Shown piece after piece: positions 39,665 to 49,657 of a DNA stretch of 64,000 bases; position 1 is the stretch's first letter, and each line of letters begins with the position of its first letter. The DNA lies in contig NZ_JADOUF010000001.1 in assembly GCF_015751905.1 (NCBI RefSeq), positions 8,493,501 through 8,557,500 on the forward strand, read 5' to 3'. The notes beneath the pieces were generated by a model. The model did no database searches. It had not been told where the DNA came from and saw only the letters and a list, made by a program, of their open reading frames with translations. Both the position numbers and the translations under genes were made by a program. The DNA is from Longispora fulva. Its GTDB lineage: Bacteria; Actinomycetota; Actinomycetes; Mycobacteriales; Micromonosporaceae.

Positions 39665-42418
39665 ATGAGCGATCAACCGACCCTGTTGGGGCGCGAGGAC
39701 GTTCTCGAACGGTGCCGGGCACAGCTGGACGCGGGTGCCGGCGTGCTGCTGTACGGACCGGCCGGCATCGGCAAGTCCGCGGTCGTGGAGGTCCTGGGCG
39801 CCGAAGCCGCCGCCCAGGGGCAGCTCGTCCTGCGCAGCACGCCCTCGGCCGTCGAGGCCGGACTCCCGCACCTGACCCTGTGCGACCTGTTCAGCGGCGT
39901 GCTCGACGTGGACCCGCCAGCCCTGCCCGGCCACCTGCGCGCGGCGCTGGAGACCGCGCTGCTGCGCGGGGCGCCCCTCGCCGGGGCCGCCACCGACCAG
40001 CTCGCCATCCGGCTCGGCGTCCTGGAACTGCTGCGCGGCCTCGCCCTGCGCGGCACCGTCCTGCTCGTCCTCGACGACGCGCACTGGATCGACCCGGCCA
40101 GCGCCGAGGTGCTCGCGTTCGCCGCCCGCAGGCTCGGCGGCCTGCCCGTCCGGATGCTCGTCACCGAACGCGTCGAGCCCGGCGCCGAACCGCTCGCGAT
40201 CGAGCTGCTCCCGCCACAGGTGACGGAGATCGCGCTCGACGGCCTGCCCGAGACCCTCCTCGGCGAACTGCTGCGCAACCGCCTGGACATGCCGCTCACC
40301 GGCGACACCCTCGGCCGGGTCCGCGCGTCCAGCGGCGGCAACCCGCTCTACGCCCTCGAACTCGGCCGGGCCCTGCGCCGCCGGGGCGAGCCGGTCCGCC
40401 CGGACGAGCCGCTGCCCGTCCCCGACCGGCTCCGGCCACTGCTGTCCGCCCGGCTCGCCGAACTGCCGGTCGCGGCCATGCCCGCGCTGCTCCTCGTCGC
40501 CGCGGCGGCCCGGCCCGGGCGCGAACTGCTGCCCACCGACGACCCCGGGCTCGCCGTCGGGCTGGCCACCGGGGTGCTGGGCCTGTCCCCGGGCGGCGAA
40601 CTGCGGTTCAGCCACCCGCTGCTCGGCGAGCTGGTCTACGCCGACGCGACCCCGGCACAGCGCCAGGCGGCCCACACCCGGCTCGCCGACCTCGTCCCCG
40701 ACCCGGTCGAAAGGGTCCGGCACCGGGCACTGGCCACGCCGGGACCCGACCGGGCGCTCGCCGAGGCCCTGGAGGCCGCGGCGGAGGTGGCCCTGGCCCG
40801 GGGCGCGCCGGGCACGGCCGCCGAACTGTGCCGGCTCGCCGCCGAACACACCCCAGGGGTCGTCGACGAGGAGCCCGCCGGAGCACCCGCCGACGGGCCG
40901 GCGCTCGTGTCGCACCGGCTGCTCGCCGCCGCCCGGCACGCGCACGCCGCCGGCCTGCCCGACCAGGTCCGCTCGGCGTGCCTGGCCGTCATCCGGGGCC
41001 CGGACCCTGCCGACCGGGTGGGCGCCCGGCTGCTGCACGCCCGGCTCCCCGGCCAGGATCCGGCCGACGTCAAGGCCCTGCTCGACGCCGCGGCCCTCGA
41101 CGCCGGGGGCGACCCGCGCCTCACCGGCTGGGTGCTGCTGGCCCGCGCCTACCAGGCCTTCCACGAGACCGGCGTCCGCGCCGGGCCGCCCGGCCTCGAC
41201 CGGATCGAGGAACTGGCCCGCGACGCCGGCGACGAGGAACTGGAGGTCGAGGCCATCGCCACCCGGCTCGCCCACCAGCTGCACCGCGACCCGCAGGGCT
41301 CCCTGGCGGTCCTGGAACGCGGCTGCGCCCTGGCCGCCGGCCAGCCGCTCACCGAGGCGTCGATCTTCATGCGGCAGATCCAGGCCGTGGCGCTGGTCCG
41401 GTCCGGGGACGTGCCCGGGGCGCTCGGCGCGCACGAACGCCTCCGGGCCGACACCGAACGCGCCGGCCGCACCCTGGACCTGTGCGACCTGTTGTTCACC
41501 GCCACCGGCCTGTACGAGCGGGCCGGCCGGTGCTCGGAGGCGCACGCCACGGGCCAGTACGGGGGCCGGCTGCGCGCGGAACTCGAGTCCGACCGGCTCG
41601 GCGAGCTGCTGCAACGGGGCGCGGCCGAACTCAACGGCGGCACGGCCGAACGCGCGTTCGAGCTGCTGGACGCCGCTGCGTCGGCCTGGGCGCGCACCGA
41701 CGCCGTGGAGTGGCTGGCCTACGCCCTCGGGCTGCGCGGCCGGGCCGAATGGCTCCTCGGCCGGTACGAGGCGTCCGCGCGCAGCCAGCGCCGCAGCCGT
41801 TCCCTGCTGCACCGCCAGGGTTACACCGACCCGGCGATGTTCCTGATCGACGCCGACCTCGCCGAGAGCCTGATCCTGACCGGGGCCACGGCCGAGGCCG
41901 CCGGCCTGCTCGGCGAGGCGCGCGCCGAGGCCGCCCGGCTGGGCCGCGACGTGGTGACCCTGGGCCTGACCAGGTCCCGGATCCTGCTCGCCGGGGTGAC
42001 CGGCGACCCCCGGGCCGCGGCCGACGAGCTGCGGGCGCTCCTGCCCGGGGATCACCCGTACCCGTTGGAGGTGGCCCGCGCGCTGCTCACCCTCGCCGCG
42101 TTGGAGCGCAGGGCGCGGCGGCGGGCGGCGGCCAGGGCGGCGTTGCAGGAGGCTGCCGAGCGGTACACCCTGGCCGGCTGCGTGCCGTACCTGCGGCACG
42201 CCGAGGCGGAGCTGGCCCGGCTCGACGCGCCCGAGGGTCCGCTGTCCGACCTGGAGCTGCGGATTGCGGAGCTGGTCCGGGCCGGGGCCACGAACCGGGA
42301 GATCGCCGGGGTGCTGCACCTGTCGGTCAAGGCGGTGGAGGCCAACCTGACCCGGCTGTTCCGCCGGCTGGGCGTGCGCAACCGGGCCGAACTGATCAGC
42401 CGGGCCCCGGCTGGATAG
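39665..42418 (+). CDS. LuxR-family large ATP-binding (LAL) regulator
   Basis: A 917-residue protein of the LAL (MalT-like) family. The N-terminal ATPase has Walker A GPAGIGKS (31-38) and Walker B LLVLDDAHWID. A long helical repeat region, poor in motifs, fills the middle. The C-terminal LuxR helix-turn-helix is LSDLELRIAELVRAGATNRE and HLSVKAVEANLTRLFRRLGV (about 855-915). Such regulators use ATP/ADP and an inducer to switch activator oligomers, often for sugar or secondary-metabolite genes. It is convergent with the polysaccharide operon and lies beside the secreted protease. The target is unknown. Confidence 0.9.
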   Translation: MSDQPTLLGREDVLERCRAQLDAGAGVLLYGPAGIGKSAVVEVLGAEAAAQGQLVLRSTPSAVEAGLPHLTLCDLFSGVLDVDPPALPGHLRAALETALLRGAPLAGAATDQLAIRLGVLELLRGLALRGTVLLVLDDAHWIDPASAEVLAFAARRLGGLPVRMLVTERVEPGAEPLAIELLPPQVTEIALDGLPETLLGELLRNRLDMPLTGDTLGRVRASSGGNPLYALELGRALRRRGEPVRPDEPLPVPDRLRPLLSARLAELPVAAMPALLLVAAAARPGRELLPTDDPGLAVGLATGVLGLSPGGELRFSHPLLGELVYADATPAQRQAAHTRLADLVPDPVERVRHRALATPGPDRALAEALEAAAEVALARGAPGTAAELCRLAAEHTPGVVDEEPAGAPADGPALVSHRLLAAARHAHAAGLPDQVRSACLAVIRGPDPADRVGARLLHARLPGQDPADVKALLDAAALDAGGDPRLTGWVLLARAYQAFHETGVRAGPPGLDRIEELARDAGDEELEVEAIATRLAHQLHRDPQGSLAVLERGCALAAGQPLTEASIFMRQIQAVALVRSGDVPGALGAHERLRADTERAGRTLDLCDLLFTATGLYERAGRCSEAHATGQYGGRLRAELESDRLGELLQRGAAELNGGTAERAFELLDAAASAWARTDAVEWLAYALGLRGRAEWLLGRYEASARSQRRSRSLLHRQGYTDPAMFLIDADLAESLILTGATAEAAGLLGEARAEAARLGRDVVTLGLTRSRILLAGVTGDPRAAADELRALLPGDHPYPLEVARALLTLAALERRARRRAAARAALQEAAERYTLAGCVPYLRHAEAELARLDAPEGPLSDLELRIAELVRAGATNREIAGVLHLSVKAVEANLTRLFRRLGVRNRAELISRAPAG

Positions 42419-42459: not shown

Positions 42460-45216
42460 TCAGCCGCCGTTCGAGCGCGTCGACACCGCCACCCAGTCGA
42501 CGAGCATCGGCTTCCCGGAAACGGTCGCGGCGTTCGGCCCGCCCGGCATCGTGCCGCCGACCGCCACGTTCAGGATCAGGAAGAATCCGTGCTCGGTGGC
42601 CGCCCGCCACGTCGCGGCGTCCACACTGTCCGCCCGGACCGTCTGGGTCAGCGCGCCGTCGAGGTACCAGCGCACCTCGGCGGCCTCCAGCTCCACCCGG
42701 TAGGTGTGGAACCCCGTGACACAGGCCGCGCACGGCCGCTCGCCCTTGCCCAGCCCCCGGGGCTCGTCGCACGGCCCGGCGACGTAGACCCCGCAGTGCA
42801 TCGTGGCGAGCACCCCTGGCCGGCCGTTGAGCTGTTCGACGACGTCCAGCTCGCCGACGCCCGGCCAGCCGGTGTACCCGTCGCGGAGCGCCCCGCCGAG
42901 CATCCAGAACGCCGGCCAGTACCCGGCCCCGGTGCCGGGGTCGACCTGGGGCAGCTGGATCGACGCCTCGACCCGCAGCGTGCCGGACCTCGGGGCGGCG
43001 AAGTCGGCGCGCCGGGACTCGATCCGCCCGGACGTCCACGTCCCGTCCCGCAGGGTCGGGGTGATCGCCAGCCGGCCGCCGGCCACGGCCACCGCGTCGG
43101 CGGTCATGGTCTCGACCTCGCCGGTGCCCCAGTTCGGGGCGGGGCAGCCGGGGTAGCAGGTGCCGAGGTCGTACAGCCAGTCGCGGGTGGACAAGGTCGT
43201 GCCGTCGAAGTCGTCCCGCCAGACCTGCTGCCAACCGGTGCCGGCGAGCAGGCCGCGCTGTTCGAGCAGCGCCTCGACCCGGGGCGCGAGCAGCGAGGTC
43301 AGGGTGGCCGTGAGGTGGCTGTCGTCGCGGTAGAGCAGCACGCCGCCGATCACAGCCGGACACGCGTCACCGGGGCAGAGCAGGTCGTCCACGTCGACGA
43401 CCCGCACGCCGGTCGGGGGCCGGTCGGCGACCGGGTCGGGGCGCAGCGCCGCCGACCGGGGGAACTGGCAGGCCCGCCAGTCGTCCAGGGCCCCGGACAC
43501 GCAGGTGGGCACGTCCCGGCCGGGCAGGGGAGTGGCCCGCAGATAGCCGACCGGGAGCCCGGCGAGCCCGGCGAGGGTGGCGTCCCAGCCGGCCCTCGGG
43601 TCGGCCACGTAGGCGTTCAGGGAGGCGGCCAGGACGAGCTTGGGCTGCGGCCAGGCGTTCACCCGGTTGAGCGCGTACCTGCGCCACTCGGTGCACTCGC
43701 GGTACTCCCGACCCAGTTGCGGGTTCACCACGGTCAGGGTCGCCAGCGGGCAGCCCTGTTTGGTCAGCACCTCGACGCCGAGGCCGCGCCGGGCGGCGAT
43801 CTGCGACACGGCCGGGAACCACTGTGCGGCCTGCGAGTCCCCGAGCAGCACGACCCGGTCCCCGGAAGCGGGGCCGAACCGGCACGGCGGGCTGACCACG
43901 GCGGCCGGGGCCACGAGGCACTCGCCCGGCAGCGGCCCGTAGTCGACCCGCGCGGCGGCCGGCGCCGGCACCACGGGCCCGCCGGTGGCCGGGCTGGCCG
44001 ACAGGGCGGCGGCCGTGAACTCGGCGAGCCCCGGCAGCCGGCCGCCGCCGTCCCCGAGCCCGCGCACGGCGGCGGTCCCGAGGACGAGTCCGGCGGCGAG
44101 GGGCAGCACGACGGCCGTCGCGCCGATCGCCAGTCCCCGGCGGGGGAACGCCGAGATGGCGGCGGAGAACCGGATCGGCCGCTCCACGAGCCACAGGGTC
44201 GCGGCGGCGGGCATCCCGGCGGCCAGCACCAGGGCGAGCTTCACCGGCCACTCCACGGGCCCGTAACGGGCCTCGGCGAGCACCAGAACGGGCCAGTGCC
44301 ACAGGTACCAGGCGAAGGACAGCCGGCCGACGAGGCGCACCGGGGCCCAGGACAACAGGGTCCGGGCCGGCCCCGCCCCGGACAGCAGCACGGCGACCGC
44401 GCCGAGCGTGGGCACCAGGGCGGCGGTACCCGGAAAAGGAGTCTGGCTTGTGAACGCCACGGTCGAGAAACCGATGGCGGCCAGCCCGGCCGCCCCGAGG
44501 ACCCCGCGCAGCCAGAGCGGCACCCGGGCGGCCCACGGCGCAGCCAGCGCGGCGAGCCCGCCGACCCCGAACTGCCACGCCCGCGACGGCGAGGAGAGAT
44601 AGGCCAGCGGCCCCGACGTCGCGGTCCAGCGCAGCGACAGCGCGAACGACGCCGCCGTGCCGAGCACCAGCACGGCCGCCACCACGGCGACCGGCCGCCG
44701 CCGGGCCAGGAACGCCACGAGGGCCAGCACCGGCGCCCAGAGCAGGTAGAACTGCTCCTCCACGCCGAGCGACCAGTAGTGCAGCAGCGGGCTGGGGTCC
44801 CCGGCGTGCAGGTAGTCGGTCCGGATGGCGATGAACCGCCAGTTGCCGACGTGTGCCGCCGCCGCGAGCACGTCGGTGGCCACGTCGCGCTGCCGGAGCG
44901 GCGGCAGCAGCACCCGGCCCGCGACGGCCGTGGCCAGCAGCACGAGCCCGGCGGCCGGCAGGATCCGCCGGGCCCGGCGGGCGTAGAACTCCGGCAGCGA
45001 CACCCGGCCGGTCCGGCGCAGCTCGGCGACGAGCAGGCCGGTGATCAGGAAGCCGGAGATCGCGAAGAAGACGTCCACGCCGATGTAGCCGCCCCCGAGA
45101 TGCGGCACGGCGGCGTGGAAGCCCAGCACGGTGAGGACCGCGACGGCGCGCAGGCCCTCGATGTCGGGCCGCCAGCCCGGACCCGCCGGCCCGGTCGGGC
45201 CGCCGACAGGCCTCAT
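42460..45216 (-). CDS. Fusion protein: membrane acyltransferase-3, SGNH domain and GH16 glucanase domain
   Basis: A 918-residue protein with three modules. Residues about 15-395 are an acyltransferase-3 (OafA-like) membrane domain of 10-11 spans, with the R-x10-H motif in GLRAVAVLTVLGFHA and GGYIGVDVFFAISGFLITG. Residues about 415-640 form an outside SGNH domain with GDSQAAQW (S about 460) and DDSH (D about 630, H about 633). Residues about 650-918 are a GH16 domain with intact catalytic E-x-D-x2-E in GELDVVEQ (about 787-792). AT3-SGNH pairs add O-acyl groups to extracellular sugars; GH16 cleaves or transglycosylates beta-glucans. The start at 45216 overlaps the 45-residue gene by ATGA. Confidence 0.88.
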   Translation of the reverse strand: MRPVGGPTGPAGPGWRPDIEGLRAVAVLTVLGFHAAVPHLGGGYIGVDVFFAISGFLITGLLVAELRRTGRVSLPEFYARRARRILPAAGLVLLATAVAGRVLLPPLRQRDVATDVLAAAAHVGNWRFIAIRTDYLHAGDPSPLLHYWSLGVEEQFYLLWAPVLALVAFLARRRPVAVVAAVLVLGTAASFALSLRWTATSGPLAYLSSPSRAWQFGVGGLAALAAPWAARVPLWLRGVLGAAGLAAIGFSTVAFTSQTPFPGTAALVPTLGAVAVLLSGAGPARTLLSWAPVRLVGRLSFAWYLWHWPVLVLAEARYGPVEWPVKLALVLAAGMPAAATLWLVERPIRFSAAISAFPRRGLAIGATAVVLPLAAGLVLGTAAVRGLGDGGGRLPGLAEFTAAALSASPATGGPVVPAPAAARVDYGPLPGECLVAPAAVVSPPCRFGPASGDRVVLLGDSQAAQWFPAVSQIAARRGLGVEVLTKQGCPLATLTVVNPQLGREYRECTEWRRYALNRVNAWPQPKLVLAASLNAYVADPRAGWDATLAGLAGLPVGYLRATPLPGRDVPTCVSGALDDWRACQFPRSAALRPDPVADRPPTGVRVVDVDDLLCPGDACPAVIGGVLLYRDDSHLTATLTSLLAPRVEALLEQRGLLAGTGWQQVWRDDFDGTTLSTRDWLYDLGTCYPGCPAPNWGTGEVETMTADAVAVAGGRLAITPTLRDGTWTSGRIESRRADFAAPRSGTLRVEASIQLPQVDPGTGAGYWPAFWMLGGALRDGYTGWPGVGELDVVEQLNGRPGVLATMHCGVYVAGPCDEPRGLGKGERPCAACVTGFHTYRVELEAAEVRWYLDGALTQTVRADSVDAATWRAATEHGFFLILNVAVGGTMPGGPNAATVSGKPMLVDWVAVSTRSNGG

Positions 45217-45350
45217 CGCGTCCACGGCAGCATCGGGTCGACGAGGCCGGAGGCGACCAGCGCCAGTACGGCCAACACGAGCGTGGCGGCCAGGCCCTCG
45301 GGCCAGCCGTAGCCGGAGGTCGTGCGGCGGCCGGCGGAAACCGTGGTCAT
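45213..45350 (-). CDS. 45-residue single-span membrane protein of the polysaccharide operon
   Basis: A 45-residue protein: MTTVSAGRRTTSGYGWPEGL, then a span ATLVLAVLALVASGLV and DPMLPWTR. It is joined to its neighbours by ATGA overlaps on both sides (start in the GT2 stop, stop in the acyltransferase start), so it is almost certainly translated. Small single-span subunits accompany several processive polysaccharide synthases. A role as an assembly or channel subunit of the GT2 enzyme is inferred from position only. Confidence 0.7.
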   Translation of the reverse strand: MTTVSAGRRTTSGYGWPEGLAATLVLAVLALVASGLVDPMLPWTR

Positions 45351-46876
45351 GACTTCTCCTTGAGCAGTGGTCGGAGCAGAGCGAAGATCAAGGGCACGCT
45401 GAGATACGAGGTGAGCGCGACGTAACCGCCCATCGCCCAGTGGTCGCGCGGGCCGAACCGGACGAGGTCGTAGCCGAGGCCGACCCAGGACAGCAGGGTG
45501 GTCAGGGTGAGCCAGCCGATCGCGACCCGGGCCACGGTGGTGGACAGCTTCGACCTCCCGGTCCCGGTGCCGGTCGGCACCCAGGTGGCGCTGCGCCGGC
45601 GCAGGGTGTGCACGAGGGCCGCCCCGGCGGCGAAGCTGACCAGCAGGTGCGAGCGGATCACCTCGACCCGCCAGTGCGTGGTCGACACCATCGGCAGCAG
45701 CACGAACCACATCCACACCGGCAGGATGATCGGCAGCACGTGCCAGGGCCGGATGTCGCCCGGGTAGCACAGCATCATGATGATCGGCGGCAGTGGGGCG
45801 GCGAACGCGTTCACCGCCGTCAGGACATAACTGAGAATGCCGTTCCAGTAGGACACCTTGAACCGCCACGGCGCCGACATCCGGTGGAACGCACGGTCGT
45901 GAATGAGGTGGAGATTGCCCATCGCCCACCGGTACTGCTGGTTGATGTAGGCGGGCAATGCGTCGGGCGACAATCCCTTCGCGAGTACGATCGGGACATA
46001 CTGCGTGCGGTATCCGTGTTTCAGCAGTTCCAGCCCGGTGTACATGTCCTCGCTGTGTTCGAGTTTCGCGAATCCGTCGATCTCCTCGATGGCCGACCGG
46101 CGGTAGAGCGCGTTGCTCCCGCAACAGATCGCCGCATTGTCGGCGTCCCGGGACGGTTGCAGCCAGCGGAAGAACCATTCCTGCGCGGAACCCGCCGAAC
46201 GCTGGATCCAGTTCATCGCCGGATCGGTGTCGAAGAACTGCGGACTCTGCACGATGCCCACCGCCGGGTCGGCCAGGTACGGCGCGAGGTGCCGGAGGAA
46301 GTCGGGCCGGGGGCAGAAGTCCGCGTCGAGGATCGCGATCAGGTCGCCGGCGCTGACGGTCAGCGCGTGGTTGAGGTTGCCGGCCTTCTTCAGCACCCCT
46401 CGGTCGGGGCGCACCACGTACTCATAGCCGTGGCGGAAAGCGAGTTCGCGCACCTCAGGGCGGTCGCCGTCGTCGAGGACCCAGACCGTGAGCGGCCCGT
46501 CCCAGTCGAGGGCGGCCACGGCGCGGTAGGCGTTGGCGAGCACGTCGAGCGGCTCGCCGCAGGTGGGCAGGAAGACGTCCACGTCAGGGACCAGCGCCGG
46601 GGTCCACGACCGGACCAGCAGCTCGTGCGAGGCGCGGGTCAGCCGGCGCTGGCGTTGACCGTCCACGAGGGACAGGGCCCAGCCGGCGACATTGACCGCG
46701 AGTACGGCGAGGAATGCCCATAACGCGGGATGCCGGAGCGCGAACAGGAATAGGGTGACGGCCGTGAATATGTAGGAGAAGAGTACCGACAGGAGCACCC
46801 ATCGGCGTTGCGGGCCGAAGTACGAGTAGAGCTCGTCGTCGTCGGGTGGAGCGGGGAGGAGCGTTGTCGCGGACAT
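45347..46876 (-). CDS. Processive family-2 glycosyltransferase, cellulose/curdlan-synthase-like
   Basis: A 509-residue membrane glycosyltransferase. Two N-terminal spans (about 27-70) precede a GT2 domain with D135/D136 in VLDDGDR, D-A-D in AILDADFCPR (184-186), the base in HSEDMYTG (276-277) and the QxxRW-type motif QQYRWAMGN (313-317). About five C-terminal spans follow. This is the layout of BcsA and of curdlan synthase, which join UDP-glucose units and thread the chain through the membrane. No PilZ domain is present. The GH16 domain in the same operon favours a beta-1,3-containing glucan, but this is inference. The start at 46876 is chosen because MSATTLLPAPP begins the conserved part. 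Confidence 0.87.
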   Translation of the reverse strand: MSATTLLPAPPDDDELYSYFGPQRRWVLLSVLFSYIFTAVTLFLFALRHPALWAFLAVLAVNVAGWALSLVDGQRQRRLTRASHELLVRSWTPALVPDVDVFLPTCGEPLDVLANAYRAVAALDWDGPLTVWVLDDGDRPEVRELAFRHGYEYVVRPDRGVLKKAGNLNHALTVSAGDLIAILDADFCPRPDFLRHLAPYLADPAVGIVQSPQFFDTDPAMNWIQRSAGSAQEWFFRWLQPSRDADNAAICCGSNALYRRSAIEEIDGFAKLEHSEDMYTGLELLKHGYRTQYVPIVLAKGLSPDALPAYINQQYRWAMGNLHLIHDRAFHRMSAPWRFKVSYWNGILSYVLTAVNAFAAPLPPIIMMLCYPGDIRPWHVLPIILPVWMWFVLLPMVSTTHWRVEVIRSHLLVSFAAGAALVHTLRRRSATWVPTGTGTGRSKLSTTVARVAIGWLTLTTLLSWVGLGYDLVRFGPRDHWAMGGYVALTSYLSVPLIFALLRPLLKEKS

Positions 46877-47103
46877 GCTGAAGGAAGCCCCCTGGATACG
46901 GGCCTGAATAAGTGGGATTCGATGGATGGGCCGGCCGGACTGCCACACTGCCGGCCGGTCGACAGCATTTAGTAAACACGTCTCACAGTTAGTGTGGGAA
47001 GCGTAAAGGCGACGCTGTGATCGGGCTCACCGGATACCCATTCCATACTGGACGGTAATCTCCCGGCGCGCCATTCCCTGGTCATCCGTTGTTTAATGGC
47101 GGC
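46877..47103. promoter_or_regulatory. Divergent promoter region of the polysaccharide operon and methyltransferase gene
   Basis: A 227-base gap with an AT-richer island (TTTAGTAAACACG near 46968-46980) that gives a -10-like TACTAAAT on the minus strand for the GT2 gene. On the plus strand TTTAAT lies about 7 bases before the methyltransferase ATG with no ribosome-binding site, suggesting a leaderless start. No clear operator was seen. Confidence 0.4.
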
Positions 47104-47739
47104 ATGGAAGACGCCAGCATCCGCACCCGCGCCGTGTACGACCACGTGGCCGACCGCTACGCCCAACTGCACGGCACGGTGCCGCCGGCCGTCGTGGACC
47201 TCGCCGACGACTTCGCCCGGGTCGGCGGGGCGGCGGGGGCGGTTCTCGACCTCGGGTGCGGCGCCGGGCGCGACATGGCGTTCTGGGAGGCCCGCGGCGC
47301 CCGGGTGGTCGGTCTCGACCTGTCCACCGGGATGCTCGACCACGCGGCCGGGCTGGTGGCGGGGCCGCTGGTCCAGGGCGACATGCTCCGGCTGCCGTTC
47401 GCGGACGGGGCGTTCACCGGGGTGTGGTCGATCGCGTCGATCCTGCACCTGCCGCACGCGGTCGCGCCCGCCGCCGTCGCCGAGATCGCCCGGGTGCTGA
47501 AGCCCGGCGGGGTGCTCGCGCTCAGTCTCCAGGCGGGCAGGGGCGAGTCCTGGGAGGTGGGGCCGTACCAGGAGGAGCGGTTCTTCGCCCGCTACGACCT
47601 GGCCGGCGCCCGGGCCCTGGTCTCCGGCGCGGGGCTGGCGGTCGGGGACTCCCGGAGCATCCGGCACGGGGACGGGCGCGGCTGGCTGCAGGTGCTGGCC
47701 GTGCGGCCGGTCGCGCGATCCCCGAAGCCTTCGCACTAA
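47104..47739 (+). CDS. Class I SAM-dependent methyltransferase
   Basis: A 211-residue methyltransferase. Motif I is VLDLGCGAGRDMAF, the acidic end of strand 2 is VVGLDLSTGML, and motif IV-like VWSIASILHLPHAVAP is followed by LKPGGVLALSL. These bind S-adenosylmethionine in the Methyltransf_11/25 group. The substrate is unknown. It lies 10 bases before the epimerase gene and is probably co-transcribed with it, so a sugar or lipid substrate is possible. Confidence 0.85.
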   Translation: MEDASIRTRAVYDHVADRYAQLHGTVPPAVVDLADDFARVGGAAGAVLDLGCGAGRDMAFWEARGARVVGLDLSTGMLDHAAGLVAGPLVQGDMLRLPFADGAFTGVWSIASILHLPHAVAPAAVAEIARVLKPGGVLALSLQAGRGESWEVGPYQEERFFARYDLAGARALVSGAGLAVGDSRSIRHGDGRGWLQVLAVRPVARSPKPSH

Positions 47740-47749
47740 TATCAGCCGA

Positions 47750-48679
47750 ATGCGCATTCTCGTCACCGGTGGCGCCGGGTACGTCGGCTCGACCCTCGTC
47801 CCGATGCTGCTCGCCGACGGGCACGCCGTCCGGGTCCTCGACACCCTGCGGTTCGGCGGCCAGGGGCTGCTCGGCTGCGCGCGGTACCCGGCGTTCGAGC
47901 TGGTCAAGGGCGACGTGCGCGACTTCGCGGCCGTGGACGACGCGGCCGACGACGTGGACGTGATCGTGCACCTGGCCGCGATCGTCGGCTACCCGGCGTG
48001 CAAGAAGGAGCCGGACGTCGCCGTGGCCACCAACGTCGACGGCACCCGCAACGTGGTCCGCGCCCGCCGCCCCGGCCAGCGCCTCGTGTTCGCCTCCACC
48101 GGCAGCGTGTACGGCGCGGTGCCCGACTACCTGTGCCACGAGGACACCCCGCGCGCCCCGATCACGCTGTACGGCGAGACGAAGGCCGAGGCCGAGCAAC
48201 TCGTCCTCGCCGCGGGCGACGCGGTGGCGCTGCGCTACGCCACGGCCTTCGGCGCGAGCCCCCGGATGCGGCTGGACCTGATGCCGAACACGTTCGCCTA
48301 CCAGGCCGTCCACGACCGGAGCCTCATCGTGTACGAGGGCGGCTTCAAGCGCACCTTCGTCCACGTCCACGACATGGCCCGCTCGATCGTGTTCGCCCTG
48401 GACAACTGGGCGGCCATGCGCGACGACGTGTACAACGTCGGCCACGAGCGGATGAACTTCACGAAGGCCGAGGTGGCCCGCAAGATCCTGGAGCACGTGG
48501 ACTACTACCTGTACTTCGCCGAGACCGGGTCCGACGAGGACAAGCGCGACTACGAGGTGTCCTACGCGAAGATCCGCTCCCGGGGTTTCGAGACCGAGAT
48601 CGACCTGGACGCCGGCGTGGCGGAGCTGGTCAAGGCGGTGTCGCTGATTAACGTTGTGAACCCGTACGGCAACGTTTAA
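47750..48679 (+). CDS. NAD-dependent epimerase/dehydratase (extended SDR)
   Basis: A 309-residue extended short-chain dehydrogenase. The Rossmann motif GGAGYVG is at the N-terminus, the active site has S/T in FASTGSVYG and Y-x3-K in LYGETKAEAE (about Y141, K145). Family members interconvert or dehydrate nucleotide sugars. It follows the methyltransferase gene by 10 bases and lies 0.9 kb from the GT2 operon, so it may supply a modified sugar. The exact substrate cannot be assigned. Confidence 0.87.
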   Translation: MRILVTGGAGYVGSTLVPMLLADGHAVRVLDTLRFGGQGLLGCARYPAFELVKGDVRDFAAVDDAADDVDVIVHLAAIVGYPACKKEPDVAVATNVDGTRNVVRARRPGQRLVFASTGSVYGAVPDYLCHEDTPRAPITLYGETKAEAEQLVLAAGDAVALRYATAFGASPRMRLDLMPNTFAYQAVHDRSLIVYEGGFKRTFVHVHDMARSIVFALDNWAAMRDDVYNVGHERMNFTKAEVARKILEHVDYYLYFAETGSDEDKRDYEVSYAKIRSRGFETEIDLDAGVAELVKAVSLINVVNPYGNV

Positions 48680-48751
48680 CCCTTTCCATACCGGTGGGGG
48701 CCGGACCGCCTGAGATCATATTGGGCATCTTCAATATCTAGGGAGATGTCC

Positions 48752-49657
48752 ATGCGACTCCGTCGACCCCTCGTCATCCTCCTCCTCGCCGCCGGCACCC
48801 TGCTGGCCACGGCGCTGCCCGCCCAGGCCGCCGGGCCGGGCTACGCGGCACTCGGGGACTCCTACTCCTCCGGCGTCGGCACCCGCGACTACTACGCCGA
48901 CTCGGGCAACTGCCAGCGCTCGCAGTACGCCTACCCGACCCTGGACTCCGGCCGGCTCGGCGCGTCGCTCACCTTCGTCGCGTGCAGCGGGGCCCGGGTC
49001 GCCGACGTGCAGAACAACCAGCTCGGCGCGCTGAACGCCGCCACGAGCTACGTCACCGTCTCGGTCGGCGGCAACGACGCAGGGTTCGCCGACGTGATCA
49101 CCCAGTGCGCGAAGCCGTGGCCGTGGACCTGCACCTCGGAGATCAACAACGCCAACGCCTTCATCCGCAACACGCTGCCGGGCCGGCTCGACGGGCTCTA
49201 CGCGCAGATCAGGTCCCGCGCGCCCGGGGCCCGGGTCGTGGTCGTCGGCTACCCACGGCTGTTCCAGGGCGAGTCCTGCAACGTGCTGGCCCGGATCTCC
49301 GCCGCCGAGGCGTCCGCGCTCAACGGCACGGCCGACCTGCTCGCGACCACGACCGCCGGCCGGGCGTCGGCCGCCGGGTTCTCCTTCGTCGACTCACGGG
49401 CGGCGTTCACCGGCCACGCCGTGTGCTCCAACAGCGAATGGCTCAACGGCCTGTCCAACCCGATCAGCGAGTCCTACCACCCCAACCGGAGCGGACACGT
49501 CGGGTACGCCAACATCGTCGAGCCCGTCCTGCGCGGCGCGGCAGCCCCGGTGTTCCTCTCGCTGGAGCCCTCCCTCACGGACCCGGCCGAGGTAACGGCA
49601 ACCCTGGCGGCCTCCTACCGTCAGGAGGCAGCGGAAGCCCACCGCTCCCGCGACTAG
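48752..49657 (+). CDS. Secreted SGNH/GDSL lipase or esterase
   Basis: A 301-residue secreted hydrolase. The signal peptide is RRPLVILLLAAGTLLATALP with AQA cleavage. The SGNH blocks are GDSYSSGVG (S37), GGNDAGF, and SYHPNRSGH, as in Streptomyces extracellular lipases and phospholipases. Several Cys pairs suggest disulfides. The ATG at 48752 has GGGAG 6 bases upstream, while the ATG at 48746 directly abuts that site, so 48752 is preferred. A role in extracellular ester or lipid hydrolysis is likely. Confidence 0.9.
   Translation: MRLRRPLVILLLAAGTLLATALPAQAAGPGYAALGDSYSSGVGTRDYYADSGNCQRSQYAYPTLDSGRLGASLTFVACSGARVADVQNNQLGALNAATSYVTVSVGGNDAGFADVITQCAKPWPWTCTSEINNANAFIRNTLPGRLDGLYAQIRSRAPGARVVVVGYPRLFQGESCNVLARISAAEASALNGTADLLATTTAGRASAAGFSFVDSRAAFTGHAVCSNSEWLNGLSNPISESYHPNRSGHVGYANIVEPVLRGAAAPVFLSLEPSLTDPAEVTATLAASYRQEAAEAHRSRD

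Follow-up and report, generated by a model that had tools for sequence, protein, structure and literature searches.

A recurrent actinobacterial gene cassette in Longispora fulva combining a GT2 synthase, a single-helix peptide and an AT3-SGNH-GH16 fusion protein

The window analyzed here is a 64,000-nucleotide stretch of DNA from the soil actinobacterium Longispora fulva, corresponding to positions 8,493,501-8,557,500 of a one-contig genome of 8.68 Mb. It contains a cassette of three genes on the minus strand (window positions 42460-46876), which encode, in this order, a family GT2 glycosyltransferase, a 45-residue peptide (SP) and a chain of 918 residues that combines an acyltransferase-3 (AT3) membrane domain, an SGNH domain and a GH16 domain. 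Both gene junctions are ATGA overlaps. This layout had been described in an initial annotation made from the sequence alone, and was confirmed by the open reading frame coordinates and by Pfam. The operon joins a single membrane GT2 to modifying and cutting enzymes of its own, as is typical of synthase-dependent exopolysaccharide systems. Based on the analyses below, we conclude that the cassette is a real, recurrent and functionally coherent variant of such systems.

The last gene (42460..45216, minus strand) encodes the 918-residue fusion when read from its ATG, and a 921-residue protein when read from an alternative in-frame GTG at 45225. The AlphaFold model of the fusion has a mean predicted local distance difference test (pLDDT) value of 84.4 and a predicted template modelling (pTM) score of 0.71. 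The AT3 membrane domain spans residues 18-341 (44194..45165, minus strand) and matches PF01757 Acyl_transf_3 with 105.9 bits against a cut-off of 31, while the SGNH domain spans residues 433-648 (43273..43920, minus strand) and matches PF19040 with 101.7 bits against a cut-off of 27. The protein thus has both the architecture and the residues of an AT3-SGNH O-acyltransferase, with R23-x10-H34 in AT3 and GDS 459-461 and D631-x2-H634 in SGNH. Catalytic residues were kept in every complete copy aligned, which supports the initial annotation. R23 and H34 were conserved in 78 of 79 rows (the exception is truncated), and S461, D631 and H634 in 75 of 79 (the other four are truncated); in these and the other residue-conservation sets, two rows repeat a genome.

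The GH16 domain occupies approximately residues 660-918 (42463..43239, minus strand), and residues 749-893 match PF00722 with 32.7 bits against a cut-off of 22. Both its fold and its ExDxxE catalytic motif, E789-L-D-V-V-E794 (42835..42852, minus strand; catalytic residues E789, D791 and E794), identify it as a member of GH16. In 57 of 59 rows the three residues (E134, D136 and E139 in domain numbering) are intact, and the two remaining rows are broken copies. The nearest solved GH16 structure is the endo-1,3-beta-glucanase of Streptomyces sioyaensis (3dgt; 50% identity, E-value 2.9e-77), to which the GH16 model aligns with a target-normalised TM-score of 0.87; the match scores to 3dgt are 263 bits for the window GH16 and 301 bits for that of S. 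griseus. PF01757 and PF19040 were both found in all 41 rows of an alignment of AT3-SGNH proteins. The Pfam GH16 model detected only two of the 34 rows that contain a GH16 part (E<=0.001), so that automated annotation would tend to label such fusions as plain acyltransferases. The fungal SKN1/KRE6 model matched 19 of the 41 rows.

The first gene (45347..46876, minus strand) encodes a BcsA-like GT2 synthase of 509 residues. The motifs reported in the initial annotation were recovered at D135, D184/D186, E276-D277 and QQYRW 313-317, and, as also stated there, the cyclic di-GMP-binding PilZ domain expected of a cellulose synthase had no Pfam match in this protein at E<=0.01. Residues D135, D184, D186, D277, Q313, R316 and W317 were kept in 84 of 84 rows. 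In addition to the D,D,D,QxxRW signature the protein has KAG and QxPQ, and these motifs recur across the alignment (KAG in 83 rows, QxPH/Q in 84). According to the accessible text of PMC6821405, KAG, QxPH/Q and FxVTxK are fully conserved in bacterial beta-glucan synthases of the BcsA/CrdS/BgsA set.

To survey related loci, one genome per species was scanned with a five-sequence GT2 alignment, and the best 80 of the 226 loci confirmed were taken. Since these named actinobacterial loci were picked by GT2 similarity, they show what follows this GT2 and not how frequent the fusion is among all AT3 proteins. SP was present in 76 of the 80 loci, AT3-SGNH in 76 and GH16 in 54. The gene order GT2-SP-AT3/SGNH was found in 76 loci, and the order GT2-SP-AT3/SGNH-GH16 in 54. 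AT3, SGNH and GH16 form one chain in 44 loci, in two of which the GH16 part is broken (L050 and L073); another 10 loci have GH16 as a neighbouring separate gene, and 22 have AT3-SGNH but no adjacent GH16. Among the latter, AT3-SGNH is complete in 18 and cut short in four (L043, L103, L107 and L117); L098 and L101, both among the 18, lie on contigs that run out within 0.4 kb, and a separate GH16 is possible there. Of the four loci without AT3-SGNH, one (L075) has little sequence past the GT2. The fused form occurs in genera including Streptomyces, Kitasatospora, Streptacidiphilus (with a broken GH16), Crossiella, Actinocrispum, Catenulispora and Rhizohabitans, and the split form in Longispora, Solihabitans, Catelliglobosispora, Streptosporangium, Sinosporangium, Nonomuraea and one Streptomyces.

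We also sampled the class evenly, taking 394 genomes that include the window's own. Seven genomes contained the GT2 at a threshold of E<=1e-190, and all seven had an AT3-SGNH match at most 0.5 kb downstream. The linkage to the GT2, whose loss in related genomes would have counted against the initial proposal, was kept in each GT2 genome of the sample, and none of the refuting outcomes listed in the initial annotation materialised. Five of the seven, including the window's genome, carry the full-length triple fusion; the remaining two have a separate lipobox-bearing GH16 (G525) or no GH16 within 15 kb (G463). Conversely, all five full-length triple fusions in the sample adjoin the GT2. Seven more genomes had an AT3-SGNH match with no GT2 at this threshold, one of which (G597) has a weaker GT2 adjoining. 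Another of these seven, G735, has an SGNH-GH16 fragment (L156, 7763-9361) with no AT3, SP or GT2 in 15.5 kb, which looks like a remnant of the cassette.

SP (45213..45350, minus strand) is a single-helix membrane peptide that is conserved in five aligned cassettes. Neither Pfam nor NCBIfam matched its reading frame at E<=0.01, and its only match in PHROGs was at E 0.28. The initial annotation had considered it a membrane-spanning protein of its own. The single-helix reading frame does exist as a separate gene in the window, but in 62 of the 76 loci having SP it forms the C-terminal tail of the GT2, which shows that it belongs to the synthase. Independence was therefore given up, and in terms of sequence SP is the last helix of the GT2 in detached form. 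Equating it with the last helix of BcsA was considered and dropped, since the alignment of the model with BcsA chains reached only about residue 533 of 557. A count of the modelled helices suggests instead that SP adds one further membrane crossing and has its C-terminus on the outside.

The SGNH/GH16 junction of the window (43240..43275, minus strand) corresponds in split relatives to a stop, a second start and a signal that resembles a lipobox. The AT3-SGNH frame of the sister species Longispora albida closes with LLAAKGLL and a stop, and the GH16 gene starts in a four-base overlap with a short signal ending in LLASC. We compared the region upstream of the GH16 domain in 13 split proteins (10 named loci plus G010, G525 and G076) and 46 fused proteins (44 named loci, the window and G014). 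A strict lipobox was found in 12 of the 13 split proteins and a looser pattern in all 13, whereas neither pattern was found in any of the 46 fused proteins. Fusion thus swaps a lipid tether for another membrane tether. The GH16 domain appears, from these signals, to be anchored on the external side of the membrane in both forms, and a membrane tether shared by AT3-SGNH and GH16 is strongly suggested. The same evidence would place the action of GH16 next to AT3-SGNH and not in the medium. The covalent link between acylation and cleavage proposed in the initial annotation is real and recurrent as a fusion; it is not essential, since GH16 is a separate lipoprotein-like protein in L. albida and others and no GH16 was found beside the complete AT3-SGNH of 18 of the 76 AT3-SGNH loci.

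The history of these states was traced on a GT2 tree of 81 rows, inferred with a quick IQ-TREE run, in which 28 of 78 inner branches were starred, 23 were open and some were long. On this tree, the fewest fused/split changes required were four for GH16 (seven with absence as a third state) and three for SP. In the 74 rows scored for both, GH16 and SP were both fused in 41 and both split in 11, GH16 was absent with SP fused in 18, and GH16 was fused with SP split in four. No row combined a fused SP with a split GH16. The locus of Streptomyces griseus (L051) is one of those in which both parts are fused. A Kitasatospora/Streptomyces clade of 17 GT2 rows (L095, L102, L114 and 14 others) is without GH16, with 15 rows scored as absent and two truncated and unscored. 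In the genomes of K. purpeofusca, K. indigofera and Kitasatospora sp. Root107, a member of this paralogous GH16-less GT2-AT3/SGNH clade is present alongside a copy with fused GH16.

Other arrangements were observed around more distant GT2s. In a genome of the same order (L034, 6873-14361), a UDP-glucose/GDP-mannose dehydrogenase, AT3-SGNH, GT2 and GH26 genes occur together, with GH16 on the other strand. In L145-L148, the GT2 is followed by AT3-SGNH in four of four cases, and a partial scan of the next genes showed PMT_2 and UDP-glucose/GDP-mannose dehydrogenase genes in L145 and a DUF1800 protein in L147 and L148. Across the wider GT2 family, the products may include other types of acylated and modified polymer. 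As guides to the product of the cassette, partners such as GH26, PMT_2, DUF1800 and the uridine diphosphate (UDP)-sugar dehydrogenase do not settle the matter.

On the plus strand of the window, a LuxR-type regulator with an AAA domain (39665-42418) converges on the 3' end of the cassette, and no full-length relative of this regulator was found near the other cassettes searched, with a short match only in L079. On the other side (47089-49657, plus strand), an NAD epimerase gene separates a divergent S-adenosylmethionine methyltransferase from a GDSL esterase that looks secreted. The methyltransferase (61% identity) and the esterase (81%) are also found upstream of the L. albida cassette. Both were rejected as parts of the system, since L. 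albida was the only match among 85 loci (tblastn, E<=1e-8).

Taken together, the observed gene order, fusion states and conserved catalytic residues and the predicted domain folds suggest a mechanism. We consider it rather probable that the cassette encodes a self-contained membrane-bound machine that produces a polymer of the beta-glucan type, adds O-acyl groups to it where it exits and cuts or trims the chain. Working on the cytoplasmic side, the GT2 would polymerise a UDP-sugar, with UDP-glucose as the likeliest substrate, and thread the chain through its membrane helices. SP may pack against the GT2 and be needed for its folding or activity, as the membrane anchor of BcsB supports BcsA. 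AT3 would carry acyl groups across the membrane to SGNH, which would O-acylate the emerging chain outside; in the part of PMC9558356 available, the SGNH domain is thought to perform the final transfer in AT3-SGNH proteins. GH16, held at the same spot by the fusion or by the lipid anchor in relatives, could then cut or transfer the chain and thereby set its length or release it, and acylation probably decides where it cuts. We infer from the above the beta-glucan nature of the product with its beta-1,3 links, the type of acyl group, the role of SP, the coupling of acylation to cleavage and the chemistry of cutting versus transfer. A more specific version, which we consider less likely than not, is that of an acylate-and-cut gauge in one chain, in which SGNH writes an acyl mark that the tethered GH16 reads, setting the length of a secreted acyl-beta-glucan, with SP as an obligatory synthase partner reduced to a single membrane helix.

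The initial annotation had named a frameshift or misassembly beforehand as grounds for rejecting the fusion. The two separate genes of L. albida would be compatible with such an error, but 44 of the 80 named loci carry the same fusion, as does G014, a genome of the same family as the window with an identical uninterrupted architecture at 51% identity. The uninterrupted chain is therefore due neither to chance nor to a frameshift, and the window junction also lacks the entire lipoprotein signal of the split forms, which a single-base error could not remove; we regard this explanation as extremely improbable. The beta-glucan-like product proposed initially has held up in part. The nearness of the GH16 domain to endo-1,3-beta-glucanases fits such a product and, together with KAG and QxPQ in the GT2, speaks for a beta-glucan containing 1,3 links but is not proof of one. 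Several observations weigh against it. The FxVTxK gating motif of the described curdlan, cellulose and mixed-linkage synthases was found in none of the 84 GT2 rows; WxP[TS]G occupies this loop in 83 (the exception, L090, is truncated), where the correspondence is one of position in the same loop, since the FKVTPK of the Sinorhizobium meliloti pSymB GT2, added by profile, did not align columnwise with WVPTG. The Romboutsia ilealis GT2, a mixed-linkage synthase, does carry FxVTxK according to the accessible part of PMC10374906. The score against TIGR03030 CelA was 182.2 bits, below the NCBIfam curated cut-off of 699.1. Given the missing motif and the low CelA score, the GT2 was not assigned as a cellulose, curdlan or mixed-linkage synthase. 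GH26 genes adjoin two GT2s at 44-45% identity (L033 and L034), and more distant GT2s adjoin a UDP-sugar dehydrogenase or a PMT_2 protein, which leaves room for a mixed or non-glucan product. The 18 loci with complete AT3-SGNH but no adjoining GH16 indicate that cutting is dispensable in some, and the nearest GH16 enzymes are, to our knowledge, free glucanases and not synthase partners.

Some of these points speak for another beta-linked chain in place of a beta-1,3-containing glucan, such as a mannan-, uronic-acid- or glucomannan-like polymer, which GH16 would attach to wall glycan as a transglycosylase. In addition to the absence of FxVTxK, the GH26 genes (L033, L034) and the UDP-glucose/GDP-mannose dehydrogenases (L034, L145) near distant GT2 relatives and the SKN1/KRE6 matches are consistent with this explanation. 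It is nevertheless unlikely, although not negligible, because no dehydrogenase or GH26 gene is present in the window operon or among the nine neighbours scanned and the nearest solved GH16 structures are endo-1,3-beta-glucanases. We find it still less plausible that GH16 is an ordinary scavenging beta-glucanase, tethered by chance to AT3-SGNH, with acylation and synthesis concerning another glycan. Similar free-standing GH16 genes are common in relatives, many at 45-57% identity over the GH16 part, and also occur in plasmid records; the window's genome has two further GH16 genes elsewhere, and the 18 GH16-less loci do without the domain. A chance tether is, however, difficult to reconcile with a linkage of GH16 to this GT2 across many genera, with at least four fused/split changes within the operon, with the position of all five full-length fusions of the class sample beside the GT2 and with a tether signal or fusion in every GH16 copy examined.

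The gene set probably makes a surface sugar polymer, acylates it and cuts it. The cassette points to a glucan, uncharacterised and probably acylated, in actinobacteria that include Streptomyces and Kitasatospora. It also points to a minimal synthase kit in which components have been fused and separated repeatedly, and the two natural series of fusions hint at which components are in contact. The coordination of acylation with cleavage on an emerging polysaccharide is a general question, and here both predicted activities reside in one chain. Searches of the open literature, which left most subscription papers and bioRxiv preprints outside their coverage, returned no description of the AT3-SGNH-GH16 architecture, and a word search of the AT3 review PMC9558356 gave no use of GH16 or glycoside hydrolase.

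Comparison with known systems reveals partial counterparts of the cassette. The closest precedent is the succinoglycan system of S. meliloti (ExoH/ExoZ and ExoK), in which, as in the proposed function of the cassette, an AT3 acyltransferase and an endo-beta-glucanase act on one exopolysaccharide. ExoK is a GH16 member, whereas succinoglycan is a repeat-unit polymer and not the product of a single GT2 synthase. Succinoglycan from an exoH mutant, which has no succinyl groups, resists the glycanases ExoK and ExsH (PMC4916376, accessible part). According to the title of a reference in PMC9558356, a single fragment carries both exoH and exoK, and exoK is similar to endo-beta-1,3-1,4-glucanases. Unlike the cassette, the succinoglycan system uses separate proteins and a stand-alone AT3 without SGNH (PMC9558356, available text). 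By analogy, the fused or co-tethered layout of the cassette may serve the same coupling of acylation and cleavage as ExoH/ExoK.

The BcsA-BcsB-BcsZ and Streptomyces CslA-GlxA-CslZ systems also cluster a GT2, a membrane-anchored partner and a glucanase, as described in the accessible part of PMC11022532. The cassette differs from them in that the partner is one bare helix, an acyltransferase is present, PilZ and FxVTxK are absent and the glucanase belongs to GH16. A beta-glucan-type GT2 without PilZ is also seen in BgsA, the mixed-linkage glucan synthase of S. meliloti. The curdlan synthase CrdS is likewise not known to have PilZ. An unannotated GT2 record on pSymB of S. meliloti, which we take to be BgsA, matches residues 5-326 of the window GT2 at 35.4% and has FKVTPK, unlike the window family. 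We know of no acyltransferase in the described BgsA and CrdS operons. OafA, OatA and mycobacterial SucT share the AT3-then-SGNH order and the catalytic residues with the window fusion, and no GH16 domain is described for them in the available part of PMC9558356. The window fusion scored 177.7 bits against the SucT model, which has a cut-off of 1275. On the hydrolase side, the S. sioyaensis enzyme has the same GH16 fold and the closest sequence among solved structures. It is a free hydrolase and is not known to belong to a synthase operon. PgaB and PelA differ from the window fusion in that they deacetylate instead of acylating and belong to other hydrolase families, but they too unite a modifying and a cutting domain in one exported exopolysaccharide protein.

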